Positions 3,138 to 10,319 of a DNA stretch of 22,670 nucleotides are shown in pieces. This DNA comes from a virus: positions 1 through 22,670 of the IMG/VR virus record IMGVR_UViG_3300027906_000167. One strand, written 5' to 3'. The notes below the pieces were generated by a model that was not told where the DNA came from, ran no database searches, and saw only the letters and a program-made list of their open reading frames with translations. The stretch's first letter is position 1. Every line of letters starts with the position of its first letter. The translations under genes and the position numbers were made by a program.

Positions 3138-3145
3138 TATTTATA
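3138..3145 (-). promoter_or_regulatory. T4-type late promoter for the fibre-like genes
   Basis: The minus strand reads TATAAATA, the consensus -10 octamer of T4-type late promoters, which are recognised by the phage sigma-like factor gp55. It is 28 bases upstream of the GTG start of the fibre-like gene, leaving a leader of roughly 20 bases. It faces away from the octamer at 3231-3238. Confidence 0.75.
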
Positions 3146-3230: not shown

Positions 3231-3238
3231 TATAAATA
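3231..3238 (+). promoter_or_regulatory. T4-type late promoter for the small plus-strand gene
   Basis: The plus strand reads TATAAATA, preceded by CT. It lies upstream of the small gene at 3313-3480 and divergent to the promoter at 3138-3145. An imperfect 14-base palindrome (TGGTTCTAGGACCA, 3212-3225) sits just upstream. Confidence 0.7.
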
Positions 3239-3312
3239 GTGGTAGAATTAGGAATATACAAGATGAAGTGAAACTTTCAACTTTGTTATATTATCCCCTA
3301 ATACGAGAGACA

Positions 3313-3480
3313 ATGCACAATCTAATGTCAAAGAATCAATTAGCTGAGTGGAAACACTCCCACGATGACAACCGTTGCTTAAACACACCACAGGATGAAT
3401 TAATAGATGATTATTTCTCCTGTCTTATTGAGAGCGAGGGCTATGAGCAAGAAAGACTCTGTAGACAACTGCTCTGTTGA
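3313..3480 (+). CDS. Small conserved-looking cyanophage protein, unknown function
   Basis: This encodes 55 residues (MHNLMSKNQLAEWKHSHDDN..., ending in CRQLLC) from an ATG preceded by GAGAG five bases or so upstream. The frame is also open from a GTG at 3268, which would give 70 residues, but that extension has a poorer ribosome-binding site and unremarkable sequence. The C-terminal half (ELIDDYFSCLIESEG) resembles the 'DYYFxC..E' pattern I associate with small cyanophage proteins; this is from memory, not a search. It contains four cysteines (residues 22, 37, 50, 55). Support that it is real comes from its own late promoter and a terminator hairpin 60 bases after its stop. It is the only plus-strand gene in the left 19 kb. 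The function is unknown. Confidence 0.6.
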   Translation: MHNLMSKNQLAEWKHSHDDNRCLNTPQDELIDDYFSCLIESEGYEQERLCRQLLC

Positions 3481-3539: not shown

Positions 3540-3560
3540 TACCCCCGCAAGGGGGTATTT
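3540..3560 (+). terminator. Rho-independent terminator after the small plus-strand gene
   Basis: A seven-base-pair stem, TACCCCC/GGGGGTA, with a GCAA tetraloop is followed by TTTT. It lies between two convergent genes (stops at 3480 and 3567). The T-run is only on the plus-strand side, so it should act mainly for plus-strand transcripts, though the symmetric hairpin may also slow minus-strand ones. Confidence 0.75.
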
Positions 3561-3566
3561 TAATGT

Positions 3567-3794
3567 TCAATAAAATCTTGGTTGGTTTACTTCTACTTCA
3601 ATAGTATCAAATAACCTGTTAAGTGATCTAGCATAGTCTCTGTATCCAGATCCAACGTAGAGTTGACCTGCAACTACAGAGAATGTAGCAATACCCCAGA
3701 AGATGTAATAGAATCTACTCTTCACTTGGTTTCTCTGCTTCTGTCTCCTTGTCGGACCCCATTCTGGGAGTGGTGGTGCTGTCATTTGTTCCAT
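3567..3794 (-). CDS. Small membrane protein with one transmembrane helix
   Basis: This encodes 75 residues from ATG 3794, or 72 from ATG 3785, which has GGAACAA just upstream. It has a Pro-rich, basic N-terminus (PEWGPTRRQKQRNQVKSR), then one hydrophobic segment (FYYIFWGIATFSVVAGQLYVG, about residues 28-48), then a soluble tail (SLNRLFDTIEVEVNQPRFY). The basic flank before the helix predicts the N-terminus stays in the cytoplasm. The first 80 bases overlap, in another frame, the 54-residue gene that follows talC, so translation is probably coupled to it. I believe similar one-helix proteins occur beside talC in other cyanophages, but I cannot check this. The function is unknown; a role in the host membrane is inferred only from the helix. 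Confidence 0.65.
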   Translation of the reverse strand: MEQMTAPPLPEWGPTRRQKQRNQVKSRFYYIFWGIATFSVVAGQLYVGSGYRDYARSLNRLFDTIEVEVNQPRFY

Positions 3795-3879
3795 ATTTAT
3801 TTTCTTTCACTATCCTATCATACTCTTCAGCATTGTCAAGAATAGATTTCTTTAAGTCTTCTAGTGACCATTCTGTCAT
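3715..3879 (-). CDS. 54-residue acidic protein overlapping talC end and membrane-protein start
   Basis: The ATG at 3877-3879 overlaps the talC TGA (ATGA junction), and the frame runs to TAG at 3715. The product begins MTEWSLEDLKKSILDNAEEY, continues DRIVKENKYG, and ends in a polar acidic tail (KETEAEKPSEE). The first 30 residues look like an amphipathic helix with Leu/Ile at regular spacing; the tail looks disordered. It fills an otherwise empty 81-base gap between talC and the membrane-protein gene and then overlaps the latter by 80 bases in a different frame. Helix-like coding quality, the exact coupling to talC and the lack of any other gene in the gap support it as real. The function is unknown. 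Confidence 0.68.
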   Translation of the reverse strand: MTEWSLEDLKKSILDNAEEYDRIVKENKYGTNDSTTTPRMGSDKETEAEKPSEE

Positions 3880-4571
3880 TGAAGTGCGTCTAAATCCCCA
3901 CCATGTCTGGTGCTATTTTGTGGACTGTATACTGTATTCTTTTTGACTGATTCCCAGTCTTTATCAAATATTTCTAATCCTTTATCTGTAAGGACATGGT
4001 TATACATTCCGTTAAAGATCTTAGGTGGCATGGTAACAACATGTGCTCCATTCCAGAATGCTCTTGATACCTTATATACATCACGGATAGATGCAGCAAG
4101 TATCTGTGTCTTTACTTGATGTACTCTGTAGACTTCACTTATAGATCTGACAATCTCCAGCCCAGCAACGCTATTATCGTCCAACCTCCCAATAAAAGGA
4201 CTGACGTACGTAGCACCTGCCTTTGCAGATAAGATAGCCTGAGCAGCATTGAATATAAGCGTAACATTTACTTTAATTCCCTCATCAGATAATTGTTTAC
4301 AAGTCTGTAGACCCTCTACAGTGCAAGGTACCTTAATGGTACACTGGTCTTTAAATATATCATGAAGTCGTTTACCTTCTTCATACATATTCTCCACGAC
4401 TTCCATGCTGATATCTGGTATACCAGACCTAGCTAACTCATGATAAACATCCTCTGGATCTCTACCACTCTTCATAATAAGAGATGGATTAGTCGTCACT
4501 CCATCTATCAAACCTGTGTTATGACAGTTAAGGATCTCAGCAGTATCGGCACTATCAATAAAAATTTTCAC
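3876..4571 (-). CDS. talC: TalC transaldolase (host-derived metabolic gene)
   Basis: This encodes 231 residues of the small TalC/fructose-6-phosphate aldolase family (class I aldolase barrel). Key residues visible are D6 in MKIFIDSAD, N28 in TTNPSL, the Schiff-base lysine K80 in IKVPCT, N102 in VNVTLIF, S124 in SPFIGR and S161 in AASIR. E57 (ISMEVVE) and F126 (SPFIGR) are the residues typical of true transaldolases, whereas fructose-6-phosphate aldolases have Gln and Tyr there, so transaldolase activity is favoured. In cyanophages TalC is thought to support the pentose phosphate pathway and supply NADPH and ribose for nucleotide synthesis. The start is GTG at 4571, overlapping the upstream TGA (GTGA); the canonical N-terminus begins exactly there. 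The end overlaps the next gene by ATGA. Confidence 0.95.
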   Translation of the reverse strand: MKIFIDSADTAEILNCHNTGLIDGVTTNPSLIMKSGRDPEDVYHELARSGIPDISMEVVENMYEEGKRLHDIFKDQCTIKVPCTVEGLQTCKQLSDEGIKVNVTLIFNAAQAILSAKAGATYVSPFIGRLDDNSVAGLEIVRSISEVYRVHQVKTQILAASIRDVYKVSRAFWNGAHVVTMPPKIFNGMYNHVLTDKGLEIFDKDWESVKKNTVYSPQNSTRHGGDLDALQ

Positions 4572-4831
4572 TCAGGAACCTCCTCATAGTTTTCAACGAA
4601 TTCATCAATTGGAAATAGCAAAGGATGACATGCTTCAGCAATTAGATACTGAGAGTATCTATACATGTCATCCATAGTATAACTCTGATTACTAGCAGCT
4701 TCCTGCTGTATCTCTTCTATTGCCATTGGATCTGGCAACTCATCAAAGGTAAAGGGTATGCCCTGTATGTACCACATGTCTACTACCTTCTCGTTTAGGT
4801 AACAGTAGTTTCGTGTGATACGACCTTTCAT
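4568..4831 (-). CDS. Unknown 87-residue protein upstream of talC
   Basis: The product starts MKGRITRNYCYLNEKVVDMW and ends in an acidic tail (DEFVENYEEVPE). It is predicted soluble with mixed helix. Notable segments are GIPFTFDELPDP (about residues 25-36) and a Tyr-rich stretch, YTMDDMYRYSQYLIAE. No family is recognised. The start overlaps the previous stop by one base (TAATG) and the stop overlaps the talC GTG start, so its translation is tied to TalC. Its position suggests a role in the same early cassette, but nothing in the sequence gives a biochemical function. I considered the T4 late coactivator gp33, which has a similar size, but saw no convincing match. Confidence 0.7.
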   Translation of the reverse strand: MKGRITRNYCYLNEKVVDMWYIQGIPFTFDELPDPMAIEEIQQEAASNQSYTMDDMYRYSQYLIAEACHPLLFPIDEFVENYEEVPE

Positions 4832-5088
4832 TACAACCCTTGTGTCATCTCCCGTAGAGCAGCGTCCACATATGTTCGTGTTCCCACTGGATCTGGGACG
4901 AACTCATCGGGGTTTGGAATATTTATATCTGGTGCTTCAGGGTCTTGAGCAACAGATGCTACTGGTGAGATTATACAGACAATGCCCTTGTTAGTAGTAA
5001 CTCTCAAGGTATTCCCCTTCTCCACCAGAGTAAGAGAAAAGGGGACATTCTCCTCGAATTCCCCCTGTGTTAGATTTATGATATTCAT
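4831..5088 (-). CDS. Unknown 85-residue protein
   Basis: The product starts MNIINLTQGEFEENVPFSLT and has a beta-rich first half (LVEKGNTLRVTTNKGIVCIISP) and a Pro/Asp-rich linker (DPEAPDINIPNPDEFVPDP). It ends in a short helix (RTYVDAALREMTQGL). It is acidic and has no signal peptide or membrane helix. No family is recognised. It is coupled on both sides: ATGA overlap with the 67-residue gene and TAATG with the 87-residue gene. A TATAAATA octamer lies inside its coding sequence at 4920-4927 and could give the downstream genes late expression. Confidence 0.68.
   Translation of the reverse strand: MNIINLTQGEFEENVPFSLTLVEKGNTLRVTTNKGIVCIISPVASVAQDPEAPDINIPNPDEFVPDPVGTRTYVDAALREMTQGL
4920..4927 (-). 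promoter_or_regulatory. Candidate internal late promoter upstream of the 87-residue gene and talC
   Basis: The minus strand reads TATAAATA, 89 bases upstream of the 87-residue gene's start. It lies within codons for Asp-Ile-Asn, so a chance match is possible. If used, talC would have both early and late transcription. Confidence 0.4.
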
Positions 5089-5288
5089 ATGTATGTTATC
5101 ATATCGTCTGGGACTAGTCTTTTAAAATGCTGTAAAGTTTCAGTGAACCCATCCACTCCATCTTCACTGAACTCCCACGTCACTATCTCATCATATCCTT
5201 CATTGTCCATGATCTTGACTTCTCTCTTGGATACATCAACCCAGATATGCTCTAGGTATGTCTCCGTGTCTCCTGTTATCTTTGCCAT
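5085..5288 (-). CDS. Unknown 67-residue acidic protein
   Basis: The product (MAKITGDTETYLEHIWVDVS...) is small, soluble and acidic, with predicted beta strands in the first half (HIWVDVSKREVKIMDNEG) and a helix near the end (TETLQHFKRLVP). No family is recognised. Its start lies 38 bases after the stop of the ParB-like gene, and its stop overlaps the next start by ATGA. It is the first of five genes joined by overlapping stop and start codons that lead into talC. Confidence 0.68.
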   Translation of the reverse strand: MAKITGDTETYLEHIWVDVSKREVKIMDNEGYDEIVTWEFSEDGVDGFTETLQHFKRLVPDDMITYI

Positions 5289-5326
5289 GTGGATGGGTAT
5301 ACACTGAATCTACTGTAGCACGGTTC

Positions 5327-6229
5327 CTAGATTTTGGCAAGGAACCTGTTGTACACTCCTCTTTTCTTAAGAGAGGTGTGGTTTAGGTGAGCAGTGCTCA
5401 CACTCAATTGGACTTGACCGTCTTCCTTATCTAAGAGTCGGTCAGTAGTCACACAAAGTAACTGATACATCATCGTTAGACGACCTTCATTACTCATGTA
5501 TGCTGCTTTACCTTCACCTTCCCAGAATTCTACAAGATCTTGTAGAAGTGGGACACTACCGTTCTTTAGTACTGTATCCTCAAAGTATTCCATGAGGACT
5601 TCTGCAACATCACGTAAACCATTGTTAACACATAGGGTTGCCCATGCTCCAATAGTCTTTCTGCTGCCAGACCAGTCAGTACATGAATCGAAGAAACTCG
5701 ATACAATCTTATCTGACTCGATAATGTAGCTTTTCCAATATTCCCATTGCTGTATCGCATTGTTAATGGTGAGTTCTTCACCTCTGCGACGCTTTAACAG
5801 GTCTTTCATCACTGCTACATTTTCAGGTGTAGCAGACTCATCTACCCTATGGATCTCATCAATTGGTTTACGAGGTTTGGCTAGTGCACACTTGGAGAAG
5901 CAATTTGCTTCTACCCCAGTGACAACTATAACTGTAAACCATTTGTCTGGATCTTGCTTTGAAATAGCATTCAACCTATGCTGTGCCTCAGTGAGGTTAC
6001 CTTCTTTGTTGAAGGTTACAGGTTGACCATCCAAGAGCCACCCTTGCTGATTAATATTATTACTAATCTTTTTAGCATGGGTCTTTGACATCTTTCTGTT
6101 GTCAAAGTTGTGATACTTTAGCAGGTAATCTGCTATCACACTGTTGATCTTACAAGTCAGGGCTTCATATACCTCTGACTTAGGGTTAAACGGAAGAGCG
6201 ATTTGGTCTTCCAATATACTTAAGGTCAT
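5327..6229 (-). CDS. ParB-like 'EAQHRL' domain protein
   Basis: This encodes 300 residues from ATG 6229. That start is preferred over GTG at 6238 because AAAAGG lies eight bases upstream of the ATG. Residues 64-89 read GWLLDGQPVTFNKEGNLTEA then QHRLNAI, the pattern of ParB/DGQHR-type domains ('..dGq.i.f...g.l.dGqHRl.A'), with the first residues of the usual DGQHRL motif changed to TEAQHRL. Members of this superfamily include DNA-binding partition proteins, CTP hydrolases and nucleases. The C-terminal half (from about residue 135) is helical and unassigned. No second nuclease motif is evident. The gene leads the talC cassette and has a good sigma70-like promoter inside the end of gp5. A role in DNA handling or in regulation early in infection is inferred only. 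Confidence 0.75.
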   Translation of the reverse strand: MTLSILEDQIALPFNPKSEVYEALTCKINSVIADYLLKYHNFDNRKMSKTHAKKISNNINQQGWLLDGQPVTFNKEGNLTEAQHRLNAISKQDPDKWFTVIVVTGVEANCFSKCALAKPRKPIDEIHRVDESATPENVAVMKDLLKRRRGEELTINNAIQQWEYWKSYIIESDKIVSSFFDSCTDWSGSRKTIGAWATLCVNNGLRDVAEVLMEYFEDTVLKNGSVPLLQDLVEFWEGEGKAAYMSNEGRLTMMYQLLCVTTDRLLDKEDGQVQLSVSTAHLNHTSLKKRGVYNRFLAKI

Positions 6230-6237
6230 ATCTGACA

Positions 6238-6243
6238 CCTTTT
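6238..6243 (-). promoter_or_regulatory. Ribosome-binding site fixing the ParB-like start
   Basis: The minus strand reads AAAAGG, with eight bases to ATG at 6229. A GTG in the same frame at 6238 would overlap this site, so ATG is the likelier start. Confidence 0.6.
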
Positions 6244-6258
6244 GTATAGGACAAATTT

Positions 6259-6287
6259 ATTCTACACTAGTTCAGCAAAACTGGCAA
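6259..6287 (-). promoter_or_regulatory. Sigma70-like promoter for the ParB-like/talC cassette
   Basis: On the minus strand, TTGCCA (6282-6287) and TAGAAT (6259-6264) are separated by exactly 17 bases; each hexamer has one mismatch to the bacterial consensus. Transcription would begin near 6252, 20-odd bases before the ATG at 6229. It overlaps the last codons of gp5. It suggests host-polymerase (early or middle) transcription of the cassette. Confidence 0.65.
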
Positions 6288-8993
6288 CCCGAAGACCTGA
6301 CAAGGACCAGCAGCACAACCCACTGCCATGTAACCGTTGTTGACCACATATGCTCCTAAACCATTGTTACATTGGTTAATAATAGCACCCTGTGGCACGA
6401 ACTCAGCAATAACACCAGTAGGTGCTGAAATAAAGGTAGCATGGAATGCATTGGTAGACCCTGCAAGGATATCTGCCATGCTACTAGGCATTTGCTGACC
6501 TACTGATATTCTAACCTGTGTAGGTGGTGCAACTCCTGGGAATGGTAGGTCTGTAGTTATATCAACAATACATCCCTTAACCATAGCAAACTGTCCAGTC
6601 AAGGACGTTGCTGTCATATTGAATAGTGCAATAAACTCAAATCTACCTGAGTTTAAGAATGATGATATCCAGTTGGCCTGGTTGATTATCTCACCATCAG
6701 CAACATTTTCAATGGTATTACCTTCTATCTTGACGTTTTGAGAGTTGATCATCAACGACTCAATAGCAGCATAACTTGTCTTCGCTGCTTGTACCTTTAA
6801 CTCACCACTGACTGCGATGTCTCTATCACCTTCAAATCTTTCAGAAGATTTCTGCTCTGAAGAATCCTTAAGACCACCTGATAACTGAGGTCCAGTCGGA
6901 GTACGTCCCATATAATCAGCAGAAGGATCGAATGGAATATCTTTTACTGGATAGAAACCACCTAAATTATGTTTCTTAAGTACCTTATCCCTTCCTGAAG
7001 GACCATACATTGCTATGTCTTGTGACTGTGATATCACATCATCTGATACTGTACCCTGAGTAACATTAGTATCTACCTGTGACATAGCACCACCAGTACC
7101 AGTAACATCAGGTTGAGAAGAAGATCCTTCTGACTCTGACTGTGGACCTTGAGAGTAGTGACCATTCCATGATCCTGCTACCTCTTGATGCATGTTACCC
7201 ATGACCTTAACATAGAAGTCACCCTCTACTGTTAAGCAGTAATTACCTTTAATATTCTCACACTTATCCTTAGCAATGATCTTAGTCTCATTGTTAGGTA
7301 CATTGGTATGTCTGTTACCCCATTTATCTTCAAAACTACTGACACCACCAGGTCCACTAACTACTCTCTTAATTTTACCATCAGTAGCATCATCTATAAT
7401 TCTTGTACCACTGAGATGACTGGTTACCTGCATTAAATATGGATTGGTATCCTTAAACATCTGATCGATGTAAGAACCAGTAACTGATGGTCCACCAGTC
7501 CCTGTTGCCATATTCAGAGACGTTAAGTCTTCTCCTGAGACACCTGCTCCTTGATAATCTACATTGATTAAAGCATTAACATTCTCATAGGGAGTACCTT
7601 TAATAGCATCTTCTATGTTGTCGCATTCCGTGGATCCTATCAGTGGGAACCACCCCTTAGACTTCGGCCTCTTTATCTTCCTGTTACAACTCTTTTTAAA
7701 TAGTGCTCCTAGTATTGCCATAAGGATTTGAAGGAGACTACCCCAGTCTAATGAGGTGAAATCAAATTCAAATATACTCTGCACTGTCTCACCCAGTGCC
7801 ATTGCTTTACCTAGCATACCTTTGGCAGTGCTGATAGCAGAGATAACATCACCAGCAACATCCTTAACACGATTCATTGCAGATGTGATACCACTTAGGA
7901 CACGGTTGCTTACTCCTTTAACAGCAGAGTCAATGGTCTTACCTAATTTAGACGTAGCTATCTTATCTACAGCAAGGCTCGCCATTTGGTTAGCAAAGTT
8001 TGCCGTATCACTCAGTGCTCCCTTCACCAGTCCTAACCACATTGGTGTCTTAGCACAGAATAGTGCGAAGATCTGATCCAAGAATGACATCAATAGGTTA
8101 ACAACTATCAGTGGTACGAATGAAGATATAATCTTCACCAACATTCCTACAACCTCAGCAATTAACTTTGCCATTACCTCTTTCAAGGGTGCAAGAATAC
8201 CTGCTATACCACCAGAGAGGAAGTTCATTGTCTTCCCTAGGTGCTCTCTAACTTTATCTCCTGCTATAGTCTTACCAGTGATCAGGGATATCAATCCATT
8301 CTCAGCTCTACCGAGTGCTGCTGACATATTACCTAACTCAGTCAGCATCCTCTTTAAATCTTTCTCAAATCCACCACCAGCAGGACCAGCGACACCATCT
8401 CCAACTGATTGCATATCAACAGGTGGTTTAATGGGGTGAGTTACTGCATTACCAGGCGTTGTTGCCTCTGCCATGTTAATACCACCACCTCTTGCCTCCT
8501 CCTGTTTTCCTGTTGGAGATGCAGGTGTGTTTTCATTCTTAGGGAATGGGTTTCCACTCCTTGCATTATTATTAACAAGGTCAGTCTGTTGTGGAGTGCT
8601 GGTCTTTAATTCATTTGCAGGTCCAGCATCTGCAATAGTCGTGGCACCGTCTGACTGTTCCTGTGAAAATCCTCTGAATGCTCCTAGTACACAAGGTAAC
8701 TGTGCTTCTTCACCATCAAGGAAGAAACCTAATACCCATGCGCCTGGTTGTAATTCTGTTGTAGTACCTGCTGACTTAGTTTGTGGTTGGTCAGTTGGTA
8801 GTAATACTGTTGCCCAAGGGAGTACCTCTTTAGGTACCTCTTCTAAATATGCCTTTCCTTCTGAGTTACCTGTATACCAACCAAGGATACGCACCTTGAT
8901 ACGACCTAGCTCGGAAGGATCTCGAATCTCTTCGACTTCTCCTACCCACCAAGTAAATGTATCTCTTCCAAGATAGTCGGTACGTACGCCCAT
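6267..8993 (-). CDS. 5: gp5-like baseplate hub/spike protein without lysozyme domain
   Basis: This encodes 908 residues. The N-terminal 110 or so form the gp5 OB-fold (WWVGEVEEIRDPSELGRIKV, then LPWATVLLP, LQPGAWVLGFFLDGEEAQLP and VLGAFRG). A polar Asn/Pro/Gly-rich linker follows (about 115-205). A long hydrophobic, helical segment (about 255-330, including FVPLIVVNLLMSFLDQIFAL) and Ala-rich helices come next. The GNY.LTVEGDFYVKVMGN repeats near the middle-to-late part match the gp5 beta-helix spike. The C-terminus has a Cys-containing end (NQCNNGLG...VGCAAGPC). The T4 gp5 lysozyme motif is absent, as I believe is usual in cyanophages. The protein should form the membrane-piercing tip of the tail. 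ATG 8993 lies about 20 bases after a GATAAATA late-type promoter. Confidence 0.9.
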   Translation of the reverse strand: MGVRTDYLGRDTFTWWVGEVEEIRDPSELGRIKVRILGWYTGNSEGKAYLEEVPKEVLPWATVLLPTDQPQTKSAGTTTELQPGAWVLGFFLDGEEAQLPCVLGAFRGFSQEQSDGATTIADAGPANELKTSTPQQTDLVNNNARSGNPFPKNENTPASPTGKQEEARGGGINMAEATTPGNAVTHPIKPPVDMQSVGDGVAGPAGGGFEKDLKRMLTELGNMSAALGRAENGLISLITGKTIAGDKVREHLGKTMNFLSGGIAGILAPLKEVMAKLIAEVVGMLVKIISSFVPLIVVNLLMSFLDQIFALFCAKTPMWLGLVKGALSDTANFANQMASLAVDKIATSKLGKTIDSAVKGVSNRVLSGITSAMNRVKDVAGDVISAISTAKGMLGKAMALGETVQSIFEFDFTSLDWGSLLQILMAILGALFKKSCNRKIKRPKSKGWFPLIGSTECDNIEDAIKGTPYENVNALINVDYQGAGVSGEDLTSLNMATGTGGPSVTGSYIDQMFKDTNPYLMQVTSHLSGTRIIDDATDGKIKRVVSGPGGVSSFEDKWGNRHTNVPNNETKIIAKDKCENIKGNYCLTVEGDFYVKVMGNMHQEVAGSWNGHYSQGPQSESEGSSSQPDVTGTGGAMSQVDTNVTQGTVSDDVISQSQDIAMYGPSGRDKVLKKHNLGGFYPVKDIPFDPSADYMGRTPTGPQLSGGLKDSSEQKSSERFEGDRDIAVSGELKVQAAKTSYAAIESLMINSQNVKIEGNTIENVADGEIINQANWISSFLNSGRFEFIALFNMTATSLTGQFAMVKGCIVDITTDLPFPGVAPPTQVRISVGQQMPSSMADILAGSTNAFHATFISAPTGVIAEFVPQGAIINQCNNGLGAYVVNNGYMAVGCAAGPCQVFGLPVLLN

Positions 8994-9012: not shown

Positions 9013-9468
9013 TTATTTATCAAGTCTCTCGAAGCAGAATTCACCTTCAGACTCTTCCTTACCCCATCGAAACTTACCAGTCTCTAGATCATACCCAGTA
9101 TCTATAGCACGATACTGTTTACCATTGAATCTTATTTTGGAGACCATCCTCGTATTACCTTGGATGCATTCTCCATCAGTATTGCCATTCCACCAAACTC
9201 CATCCCAGTTCCAAATGAAAGGACAGGACTCAACACCAGTAGTAATATTAGTAGTTTTAGTATAGACGATGTTTTCATCCATCTTCTGCCAATCGTATTG
9301 AATGTAATTATATGGATCGTCTTCTCCCTTATACTTATACCAAGACTTAGCTATGAGTATACCATAACTAGGTTCTACTATTCGTATATCAATCTGAGGC
9401 CATTGTGAAGGATTAGAGAATGCTTGATTTCTATTCCTATAGTGACCTACTACTGCATTAAACAACAT
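9013..9468 (-). CDS. cpeT: CpeT-like phycobiliprotein lyase (host-derived)
   Basis: This encodes 151 residues of the CpeT/CpcT family, whose cellular members attach bilins to phycoerythrin or phycocyanin cysteines. Visible family features are the N-terminal GHYRNRNQAFSNPSQWPQID, a DPYNY segment near residue 50, a conserved Cys pair region (GVESCPFIWNWDGVWWNGNT then DGEC), and the C-terminal YRAIDTGYDLETGKFRWGKE with a final FCFERL. It is shorter than the roughly 200-residue cellular proteins. ATG at 9468 is the start; the TTG one codon earlier is less likely. It overlaps the oxygenase gene by 11 bases. Phage CpeT may alter antenna assembly or bind pigments during infection; activity cannot be judged from sequence. 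Confidence 0.87.
   Translation of the reverse strand: MLFNAVVGHYRNRNQAFSNPSQWPQIDIRIVEPSYGILIAKSWYKYKGEDDPYNYIQYDWQKMDENIVYTKTTNITTGVESCPFIWNWDGVWWNGNTDGECIQGNTRMVSKIRFNGKQYRAIDTGYDLETGKFRWGKEESEGEFCFERLDK
9014..9021 (-). promoter_or_regulatory. Late-type promoter for gp5
   Basis: The minus strand reads GATAAATA, one base off the TATAAATA consensus, 20 bases before the gp5 ATG. It includes the TAA stop codon of cpeT. Confidence 0.55.
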
Positions 9469-10102
9469 CAATATCTTTCCAACTATGGGGATCTATAATA
9501 GCAAACTCATTGTCACTCTTAGCATCAGATGCTGTTACTATTATATCATATGATATAGAATATCTTGGAGTGTTACCATGATACTCTTCTACCTCATGCT
9601 CTATGTTAGATGGGAATATGAATAGTCTACCCTCTTCAGGTACATACTGAGTATCACCATAACTGAGGTCATTCAATTCTTCTACATGTATAGGTAGTCT
9701 ATGTATATTAGGTGAATAGAATTTAAGTTTACCACCAGTCAATGCACTACCTGTCTTAGGATAATATACTACAGATAATACTGAGTTTGGGTGAGTATGT
9801 CTATTGATCTTACCACCCCTCTCTACTACCACAGGCCATGCCTTTGACGCATATATTTTAATCTTATTTACATCAACATTAAAAGCACTGAGGTATTGTC
9901 TACAATGAAATGCCACCTGACTGTTTAACCAGGTGAATCTATCATCATCGAATAACAAATAGTCACCATAGTTATCCCCAGAATAACTGTTGGTTGACGC
10001 AGAAATCCCTCCCATATACTCAAGCATTTGCTGCTTGGTATCCTGAGAGGGGTTTAGATCTTCATGATATATTGCGGTTGGAAACCATAAATCAATCGTC
10101 AT
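9458..10102 (-). CDS. Putative 2-oxoglutarate/Fe(II) oxygenase-like protein
   Basis: This encodes 214 residues resembling the '2OG-Fe(II) oxygenase, putative' family common in cyanophages. The N-terminus MTIDLWFPTAIYHEDL is typical. The core has INRHTHPNSVLSVVYYP (H102, H104), a strand GGKLKFYSP, EEGRLFIFPSNIEHEV (H169) and TPRYSISYDI (R180). H102/H104 and H169 would bind iron and R180 would bind 2-oxoglutarate. The usual HxD is HxH here, which I recall as common in this family. It overlaps CP12 by 11 bases and cpeT by 11 bases, so the three are one translational unit. The substrate is unknown; hydroxylation of protein or small molecules is possible. Confidence 0.8.
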   Translation of the reverse strand: MTIDLWFPTAIYHEDLNPSQDTKQQMLEYMGGISASTNSYSGDNYGDYLLFDDDRFTWLNSQVAFHCRQYLSAFNVDVNKIKIYASKAWPVVVERGGKINRHTHPNSVLSVVYYPKTGSALTGGKLKFYSPNIHRLPIHVEELNDLSYGDTQYVPEEGRLFIFPSNIEHEVEEYHGNTPRYSISYDIIVTASDAKSDNEFAIIDPHSWKDIDVV

Positions 10103-10319
10103 ATACTAGACACTCTGGCTCATCTGGATGTTGATCGCAGAATAATTCTAAAGCATTTGGATCATGATGATCACCTGCTACAATCTCATCGTGGTGATGC
10201 TCTTCATATTCTATTAAGTCATGTAACTCTTCTTTATAGTGCCTTCTAGCAGCAGGGTTGAGTTGAGGATCATCTAGTAATTCCTTATCATGCTCAATGT
10301 GTTGCTCTATAGTTGTCAT
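10092..10319 (-). CDS. cp12: CP12-like Calvin-cycle inhibitor (host-derived)
   Basis: This encodes 75 residues. The C-terminus, ALELFCDQHPDEPECLVYDD, is the diagnostic CP12 motif: C61 and C70 flank a proline turn and the chain ends in YDD, the region that binds GAPDH. CP12 locks GAPDH and phosphoribulokinase into an inactive complex, shutting down the Calvin cycle. The N-terminal cysteine pair and the AWDxVEE phosphoribulokinase-binding motif of plant and host CP12 are absent. The middle is highly charged and His-rich (EEHHHDEIVAGDHHDP). Together with TalC it should favour the pentose phosphate pathway. It is the first gene of a three-gene unit behind a CATAAATA late-type promoter and overlaps the oxygenase gene. 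Confidence 0.9.
   Translation of the reverse strand: MTTIEQHIEHDKELLDDPQLNPAARRHYKEELHDLIEYEEHHHDEIVAGDHHDPNALELFCDQHPDEPECLVYDD

Follow-up and report, generated by a model that had tools for sequence, protein, structure and literature searches.

Do the genes that surround the transaldolase gene talC downstream of gp5 in an uncultured cyanophage form one dedicated unit, or do they have separate histories? The question is raised by IMG/VR record IMGVR_UViG_3300027906_000167, a 22.7-kb fragment of a T4-like cyanophage that was analysed at its full length of 22,670 nucleotides (nt; hereafter the window). In this fragment, seven minus-strand genes follow gp5, which encodes the baseplate hub/lysozyme: those for a ParB-like protein, for proteins of 67, 85 and 87 residues, for TalC, and for proteins of 54 and 75 residues. 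The first-pass annotation of this DNA had described them as an early-type cassette in which unknown small proteins are tightly coupled to TalC. Comparison with relatives indicates that they are probably a composite early operon located in the gp5 insertion hot spot of T4-like cyanophages, a patchwork rather than one dedicated machine. The hot spot near gp5 and the variable positions of talC and cp12 have been described previously (PMC3037559).

The gene set downstream of gp5 (6267–8993) and its overlaps are all present as first described. In order, the genes encode the ParB-like protein (303 residues, 5327–6238; phrog_5931), the 67-residue protein (5085–5288; DUF7294/phrog_662), the 85-residue protein (4831–5088; phrog_31964, related to the Phd-like phrog_375), the 87-residue protein (4568–4831; phrog_4134), TalC (231 residues with a GTG start, 3876–4571), an acidic, fast-evolving protein of 54 residues (3715–3879) without a family match in family searches, and a 75-residue protein with one hydrophobic stretch (3567–3794; phrog_2000/T4-GC158). 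The span of 3715–6238 originally given for the cassette takes in these genes, except that the 75-residue open reading frame (ORF; 3794–3567) lies partly outside it. As judged by its retention in relatives, ATG 6229 is probably the start of the ParB-like protein, rather than GTG 6238. The gaps between gp5 and the ParB-like gene (28 nt) and between the ParB-like and 67-residue genes (38 nt) contain no overlap. From the 67-residue gene on, the junctions are −4 (ATGA), −1 (TAATG), −4 (GTGA), −4 (ATGA) and −80, the last being an out-of-frame overlap of the 54- and 75-residue genes, and such junctions may allow translational coupling. As a sign of a special unit, the overlaps are weakened by being common across the window, as in gp32/102, gp4/gp53, gp51/774, cp12/2OG and 2OG/cpeT. 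A megablast search of the cassette DNA against phage records gave no match, and no tRNAs were found in the window by ARAGORN.

Six IMG/VR scans and protein searches of phage records yielded about 310 loci, which correspond to 128 distinct contigs as judged by shared k-mers; slot counts refer to the 44 distinct contigs that span the region from gp5 to the fibre gene. The relatives of the window are an uncultured group of ocean viruses infecting photosynthetic bacteria, identified as cyanophages from the PF00124 (psbA/psbD-type) gene present in related contigs. The nearest isolates by gp5 (P-TIM40, P-RSM6, S-SZBM1 and S-WAM1) share only 38–43% identity. The 67-residue gene is present in all 44 slots, the 85-residue gene in 43, the 87-residue gene in 33 and talC in 25; the 54- and 75-residue genes occur as a pair in 21, all of them talC-positive, and five slots hold the ParB-like gene. 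From slot to slot these small genes vary in eight presence patterns, and 19 of the 44 slots hold core genes and lack talC. The order 67-85-87-TalC-54-75 is stable in one clade of uncultured relatives. The 67/85 junction is −4 in most contigs, as are the 87/TalC junction in 19 of 21 and the 85/TalC junction in three of four cases where the 87-residue gene is missing, and an out-of-frame 54/75 overlap of 44–83 nt is kept in 23/23 contigs having both genes.

The isolates extend this picture. In the closest isolate, P-TIM40, gp5 is followed at 21–26 kb by genes of 62, 84, 95 and 162 codons and then by the fibre gene, and its talC, at 169 kb, comes behind nrdA and nrdB. The gp5 of S-WAM1 is likewise followed by related genes, along with tRNAs, and its talC also lies downstream of nrdAB. 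P-SSM7 contains the 67-, 85- and 75-residue families after gp5 with no talC annotated in that slot, and in P-SSM2 the 75-residue family is found between gp44 and denV, with talC some 49 kb away; these homologues count against a unit built around TalC. In other isolates, talC lies near psbA/psbD, petE, cp12 or tRNAs. The 87-residue family also occurs without the 85-residue gene. Since the core follows gp5 where talC is absent or elsewhere, the small genes track gp5 and not talC, and the expectation that the 67-, 85- and 87-residue genes always accompany talC fails in isolates, which have them after gp5 and talC at other positions. Movement of the small genes independently of talC and the ParB-like gene, named beforehand as an argument against a single unit, was found in part. 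The ParB-like gene is a rare insert. The 67-, 85- and 87-residue genes are thus part of the gp5 hot spot, in which talC is a passenger, now fixed in one clade.

Promoter signals at the gp5 end and within the 85-residue gene

An early-type (sigma70-like) promoter, TTGCCA-17-TAGAAT, is located over the gp5 stop codon (6259–6287, minus strand). The −35 element is formed by Leu-Pro codons of gp5 and the −10 element lies immediately past the stop; the promoter, first placed inside gp5, is thus present but only half within the gene. A single site of this kind is not above chance, with 34 sites this good found in the window versus 37 expected in shuffled sequences. Comparison across relatives, in contrast, provides strong evidence that the promoter is real, with or without talC downstream. 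A score of at least 9/12 is observed at 55 of 58 gp5 ends followed by the 67-residue gene (31/32 talC-positive and 24/26 talC-negative), against 11% of random 100-nt stretches, and a score of at least 10/12 at 73% of 73 gp5 3′ ends, compared to 3% of random stretches. P-TIM40 also has this promoter at its gp5 stop, in the form TTGCCA-17-TATGAT. The Leu-Pro pair at −35 is written TTG-CCA in 40 of 46 cases, against about 6% predicted by the codon usage of gp5. The other six have TTA-CCA or CTT-CCT instead, with a fresh TTGACA-17-TATA(A/C/T)T close by. Because lost sites are compensated by this nearby promoter, function of the gp5-end promoter is strongly supported. A second promoter-like site, TTGCCA-17-TACAGT, lies over the stop codon of the ParB-like gene, upstream of the 67-residue gene (5312–5340, minus strand). 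An equivalent is found in 4/4 slot copies of the ParB-like gene, and the insert would therefore restore the promoter of the core.

The known late promoter of cyanomyoviruses, NATAAATA (PMC2984593), is distributed differently. It is found ahead of the fibre gene in 44/44 relatives, of gp5 in 59% and of the convergent 70-residue gene in 68%; none was found in these relatives ahead of the TalC, ParB-like or 85-residue genes, and the 67-residue gene has it in 2% (random 1.3%). In the window, a late motif GATAAATA lies at 9021, ahead of gp5, and TATAAATA precedes both the next gene (fibre/structural, 3109–1766; motif at 3138–3145, minus strand) and the plus-strand gene of a 70-residue protein (3268–3480; phrog_665; motif at 3231–3238), which forms the convergent 3′ boundary of the cassette. 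A scan of the window also located a hairpin between the convergent genes (3540–3557, no strand assigned) that is terminator-like for the plus-strand gene. Because NATAAATA marks the border genes and not the cassette starts, the cassette is an early-type island among late genes. The proposal of an early-type unit beginning at the gp5 end is upheld by the conserved sigma70 promoter, by the lack of a late motif at this start, and by an order and overlaps that recur in the clade.

A perfect T4-type late-promoter motif, TATAAATA, is located within the 85-residue gene (4920–4927, minus strand), 96 nt ahead of the 87-residue gene. At one codon position of the 85-residue gene, NATAAATA occurs in 26/57 contigs, mostly 96–98 nt before the next gene, and 26/26 Ile-Asn pairs at this position are written ATA-AAT (13% expected), although these ratios overstate the significance since related rows are not independent. 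We infer that the 87-residue gene and talC of the window are under early plus late control, which would agree with the assignment of talC and cp12 as middle genes in P-HM2 (PMC5082946); early and late promoters together have been described as a middle mode of control (PMC2984593). The motif, in the window and in many relatives, would uncouple the 87-residue gene and talC from the genes before them, contrary to the fixed ratios to TalC suggested previously.

Upstream of the cassette and in the same direction, family searches identified CpeT and a CP12-domain protein (10092–10319, minus strand; PF02672). Among relatives, a sigma70-like site scoring at least 11/12 is found at 30% of cp12 3′ ends (about 10092 in the window) and NATAAATA upstream of 49% of cp12 starts, and cp12/cpeT may be under similar double control. 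A CP12-like gene also lies between the hub and cpeT genes of S-RIM4 (QBQ74899; L001:2720-2932, L numbers denoting loci of the collection), where it is annotated only as hypothetical.

Exchange of the talC block and the TalC tail

TalC matches PF00923 over the whole domain with 175.9 bits (cut-off 27) and phrog_440 at 1.9e-91. Its sequence contains a TIKVP segment with its lysine, the catalytic residue of FSA, and transaldolase activity of the FSA type is predicted from this sequence. Compared with its closest relative (L003), the window is mostly 84–100% identical in DNA from the gp5 end through the ParB-like, 67-, 85- and 87-residue genes, 71–86% identical over the TalC, 54-, 75- and 70-residue genes, and 88–100% identical again in the fibre gene. 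Since identity falls over TalC-54-75 and is high on both sides, these genes were exchanged as a block, apart from ParB-67-85-87. With another relative (L004), identity is about 84–98% throughout. On the gp5 tree, phages with talC in the slot form one clade (29 rows, 95/95), and on the TalC tree, where some branches are long, the slot TalCs occur in several places, some with P-TIM40/S-WAM1 and some with S-8S55/S-CAM9. The simplest reading of the two trees would be one capture of the place followed by gene replacement; they also leave room for repeated capture of talC into the slot.

The C-terminus of TalC carries the motif RHGGDLDALQ after a variable linker (3879–3908, minus strand). In nearly all members of the main clade, TalC ends with a variable linker, G-(G/K)-D-L-D and one to a few residues, and the codons of the motif change synonymously. 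Two groups of TalCs encoded adjacent to gp32 have the same G(G/K)DLD motif within longer tails, so that it is found at two unrelated genome positions (e.g. L010, L032, L074 and L051). None of 12 isolate or reference TalCs that were examined has it. From its sequence, the tail looks like a short binding motif. A general docking motif of the clamp or single-stranded DNA-binding protein type is not supported: only TalC has it among 243 ORFs of a 199-kb relative, and the C-termini of gp32 lack it. In another uncultured T4-like group (L048, L051, L061, L069, L073-L076, L078-L080 and L084), talC directly follows gp32 and often encodes a tail of 40–70 residues. A 158-residue protein encoded at another locus, downstream of nrdA-nrdB-talC-glutaredoxin (L086:5825-6301), contains a GGDLDALDNV stretch as in some TalC tails.

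Alternative readings of the locus

In the composite operon favored here, the gp5-stop promoter and the genes for the 67-, 85- (Phd/YefM-fold) and usually 87-residue proteins would be the old core, behind which the talC-54-75 block would have been placed in one uncultured clade. TalC would have taken over the early transcription of the core, with a 4-nt overlap to whichever gene precedes it, and the late motif in the 85-residue gene of the window may also serve the 87-residue gene and talC, giving early plus late ("middle") expression. TalC, with CP12 encoded upstream, would divert host carbon out of the Calvin cycle into the pentose phosphate pathway to supply nucleotides, as in other cyanophages. 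The ParB-like gene would be an optional insert, flanked on both sides by promoters and preceded by a palindromic leader, and is probably self-regulated. By comparison, it is highly improbable that all seven genes act as a single functional unit, with the unknown proteins produced at a fixed ratio to TalC and connecting carbon metabolism with DNA or membrane functions. The stable order and conserved 4-nt overlaps within one clade, and the coherence of that clade on the gp5 tree, would fit such a unit, whereas core genes without talC in 19/44 slots, isolates with talC elsewhere, the rarity of the ParB-like gene, the separate swapping of talC-54-75 and the late motif within the 85-residue gene argue against it, and no evidence links TalC functionally to the small proteins. 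An accidental position of talC, inserted into the hot spot without benefit from the early operon and kept by descent only, is improbable to a lesser degree. It is consistent with the many places of talC in cyanophages (PMC3037559) and with talC beside gp32 in another uncultured group; however, within the clade the slot allele of talC has been exchanged (75% identity versus over 90% in the flanks, and conflicting trees) without loss of its place or of the 4-nt overlap, a pattern suggestive of selection for this position.

An additional alternative would treat the core as an anti-defence or toxin-antitoxin module, with the 85-residue protein either counteracting a host toxin or partnering the 67- or 87-residue protein, and with talC as an unrelated passenger. 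The AlphaFold2 model of the 85-residue protein, built with 29 relatives, shows a beta-alpha-alpha-beta-beta fold with a C-terminal helix (predicted local distance difference test score 79.5). Most of its top Foldseek matches in the PDB are Phd, YefM and VapB46, with leading probabilities of 0.98–1.00 and, in many cases, root-mean-square deviations of 1.1–2.8 over about 40 residues. Moreover, 26/29 relatives match phrog_375 ("Phd-like antitoxin"), the promoter is of the early type, and type II systems are reported for Synechococcus CB0101 (PMC5498466). Against this stand Foldseek E values of only 0.02–0.5, with 0.02–0.2 for Phd, YefM and VapB46, and the Pfam Phd/YefM family (PF02604), which was not reached (1/29 relatives, E 0.07). 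The adjoining 67- and 87-residue proteins match no toxin family in family searches, toxins of unknown type being possible, and the 87-residue family is not confined to loci with the 85-residue gene. PDB sequence searches returned nothing credible for the 85- or the 87-residue family. The model suggests that the 85-residue protein either acts in the manner of a Phd/YefM antitoxin or derives from one, with DNA-binding regulation and anti-defence both possible as its role; the module as a whole is somewhat unlikely. By eye, a 64-residue protein encoded after nrdA-nrdB-talC-glutaredoxin elsewhere in the collection (L086:4611-4805) is also Phd-like.

Three points weigh against the composite operon. 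The phages with talC in the slot are a single clade on the gp5 tree, and the linkage may confer a functional benefit over the long term. The contigs come from metagenomes and were retrieved through their similarity to these same genes. Most of the window's subclade has Leu at the late-motif position, with CTAAATA in the DNA, so that dual control may not be general.

ParB-like inserts and comparison with known systems

The N-terminal half of the ParB-like protein contains the motif LDGQPxTFNxxGNLTExQHRL. In a fold search with its model, sulfiredoxin (probability 0.54) and SbnI (0.30) were the best matches, but these are weak, with all E values >1. No ParB family of Pfam was reached among 20 relatives, a PDB sequence search gave nothing credible, and no ParA-like gene was recognised beside the gene, either in the window or among the relatives that were examined. 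Homologues outside the slot are found beside an SF2 helicase, among gp44, RegA, DNA methyltransferase and gp43, or, in S-RIM4, among tRNAs. A palindromic leader accompanies the family: all 17 occurrences of TGACT[TC]ACTCA in 1.83 Mb lie a few nt (mostly 5–8) before a ParB-like gene, and its 5-bp arms pair in 75/75 cells with two compensatory positions. Among all 2.9 million viral contigs, GTTGACTTACTCAACNNANTATG has 21 matches, of which 20 are in contigs with a known ParB-like gene and the 21st runs into the start of one. Examples directly before ParB-like starts are L001:7982, L223, L242, L245 and L352, and the leader is present in cultured S-RIM4. In the window and its clade, a different palindrome, TTTGT-CCTAT-ACAAA (6241–6255, minus strand), occupies the same place, between the −10 element and the ParB-like start. 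Self-regulation through the leader appears likeliest from these sequences. A broader proposal can be offered only tentatively, namely that the ParB-like proteins are a new self-regulating family that recognises its own leader immediately ahead of the start codon (GTTGA-CTTAC-TCAAC or ACTGA-CTTAC-TCAGT, the arms being compensatory) and moves from one cyanophage locus to another as a promoter-leader-gene cassette, TTTGT-CCTAT-ACAAA having co-evolved in the gp5 operon so as also to control the small genes and talC. A permissive scan of all 24 distinct ParB-like loci found terminator-like stem-loops 5′ of 15 and 3′ of 14, counts that carry no random background.

The ParB-like protein may be related to the ParB/sulfiredoxin superfamily, going by its best fold probabilities and sequence motif, and differs from it in a helical C-terminal part of about 180 residues, E values >1, and the absence of a Pfam ParB match and a nearby ParA. 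The off-slot ParB-like genes often have a terminator stem-loop with TTGAC in the loop, followed by a −10 element, as in the PeSL promoter-terminator cassettes of T4-like phages (cited in PMC4503421). The gp5 slot, in contrast, has promoters only; a scan of the window clade found no such stem-loop in the slot, its sole matches being inside gp5 with 4-bp arms. The 85-residue protein shares the beta-alpha-alpha-beta-beta N-terminal domain and C-terminal helix of Phd/YefM type II antitoxins, and is distinguished by its own C-terminal region (INIPxPEEFVPDP), the lack of a recognised adjacent toxin and its position outside the Pfam family.

The arrangement suggests how a metabolic gene can gain early timing by landing behind an existing promoter that is concealed where a structural gene ends, after which it may be swapped in place for another allele. 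It also sets a core (67-85-87 after gp5, with an antitoxin-like fold in nearly all relatives) apart from passengers such as talC and the ParB-like gene, and provides three elements open to direct testing, namely the promoter at the gp5 stop codon, the palindromic leader of the ParB-like gene and the tail motif of TalC. As in the gp5-proximal hot spot of T4-like cyanophages (Sullivan et al. 2010, PMC3037559), variable small genes follow gp5, and talC and cp12 were noted there as sometimes near gp5. That hot spot was described as "near gp5 with tRNAs", which S-RIM4 and S-WAM1 have and the window does not; tRNAs are a typical, not an essential, feature. Beyond that description, the core 67-85(-87) and the stop-codon promoter are conserved here, and talC is a clade-specific addition. 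The FSA-type TalC and a CP12 encoded upstream in the same direction agree with the auxiliary metabolic genes of cyanophages (Thompson et al. 2016, PMC5082946), except that the TalC tail of the window clade mostly extends 27–37 residues beyond the last conserved block, compared to mostly 9–17 in isolates. The sigma70-type promoter and NATAAATA ahead of the 87-residue gene and talC in the window resemble the early plus late "middle" control of RB49 and S-PM2 (PMC2984593), although the late motif of the window lies inside coding sequence and is CTAAATA in most close relatives. The hot spot and the talC/cp12 genes were known; some well-supported regulatory detail is new.

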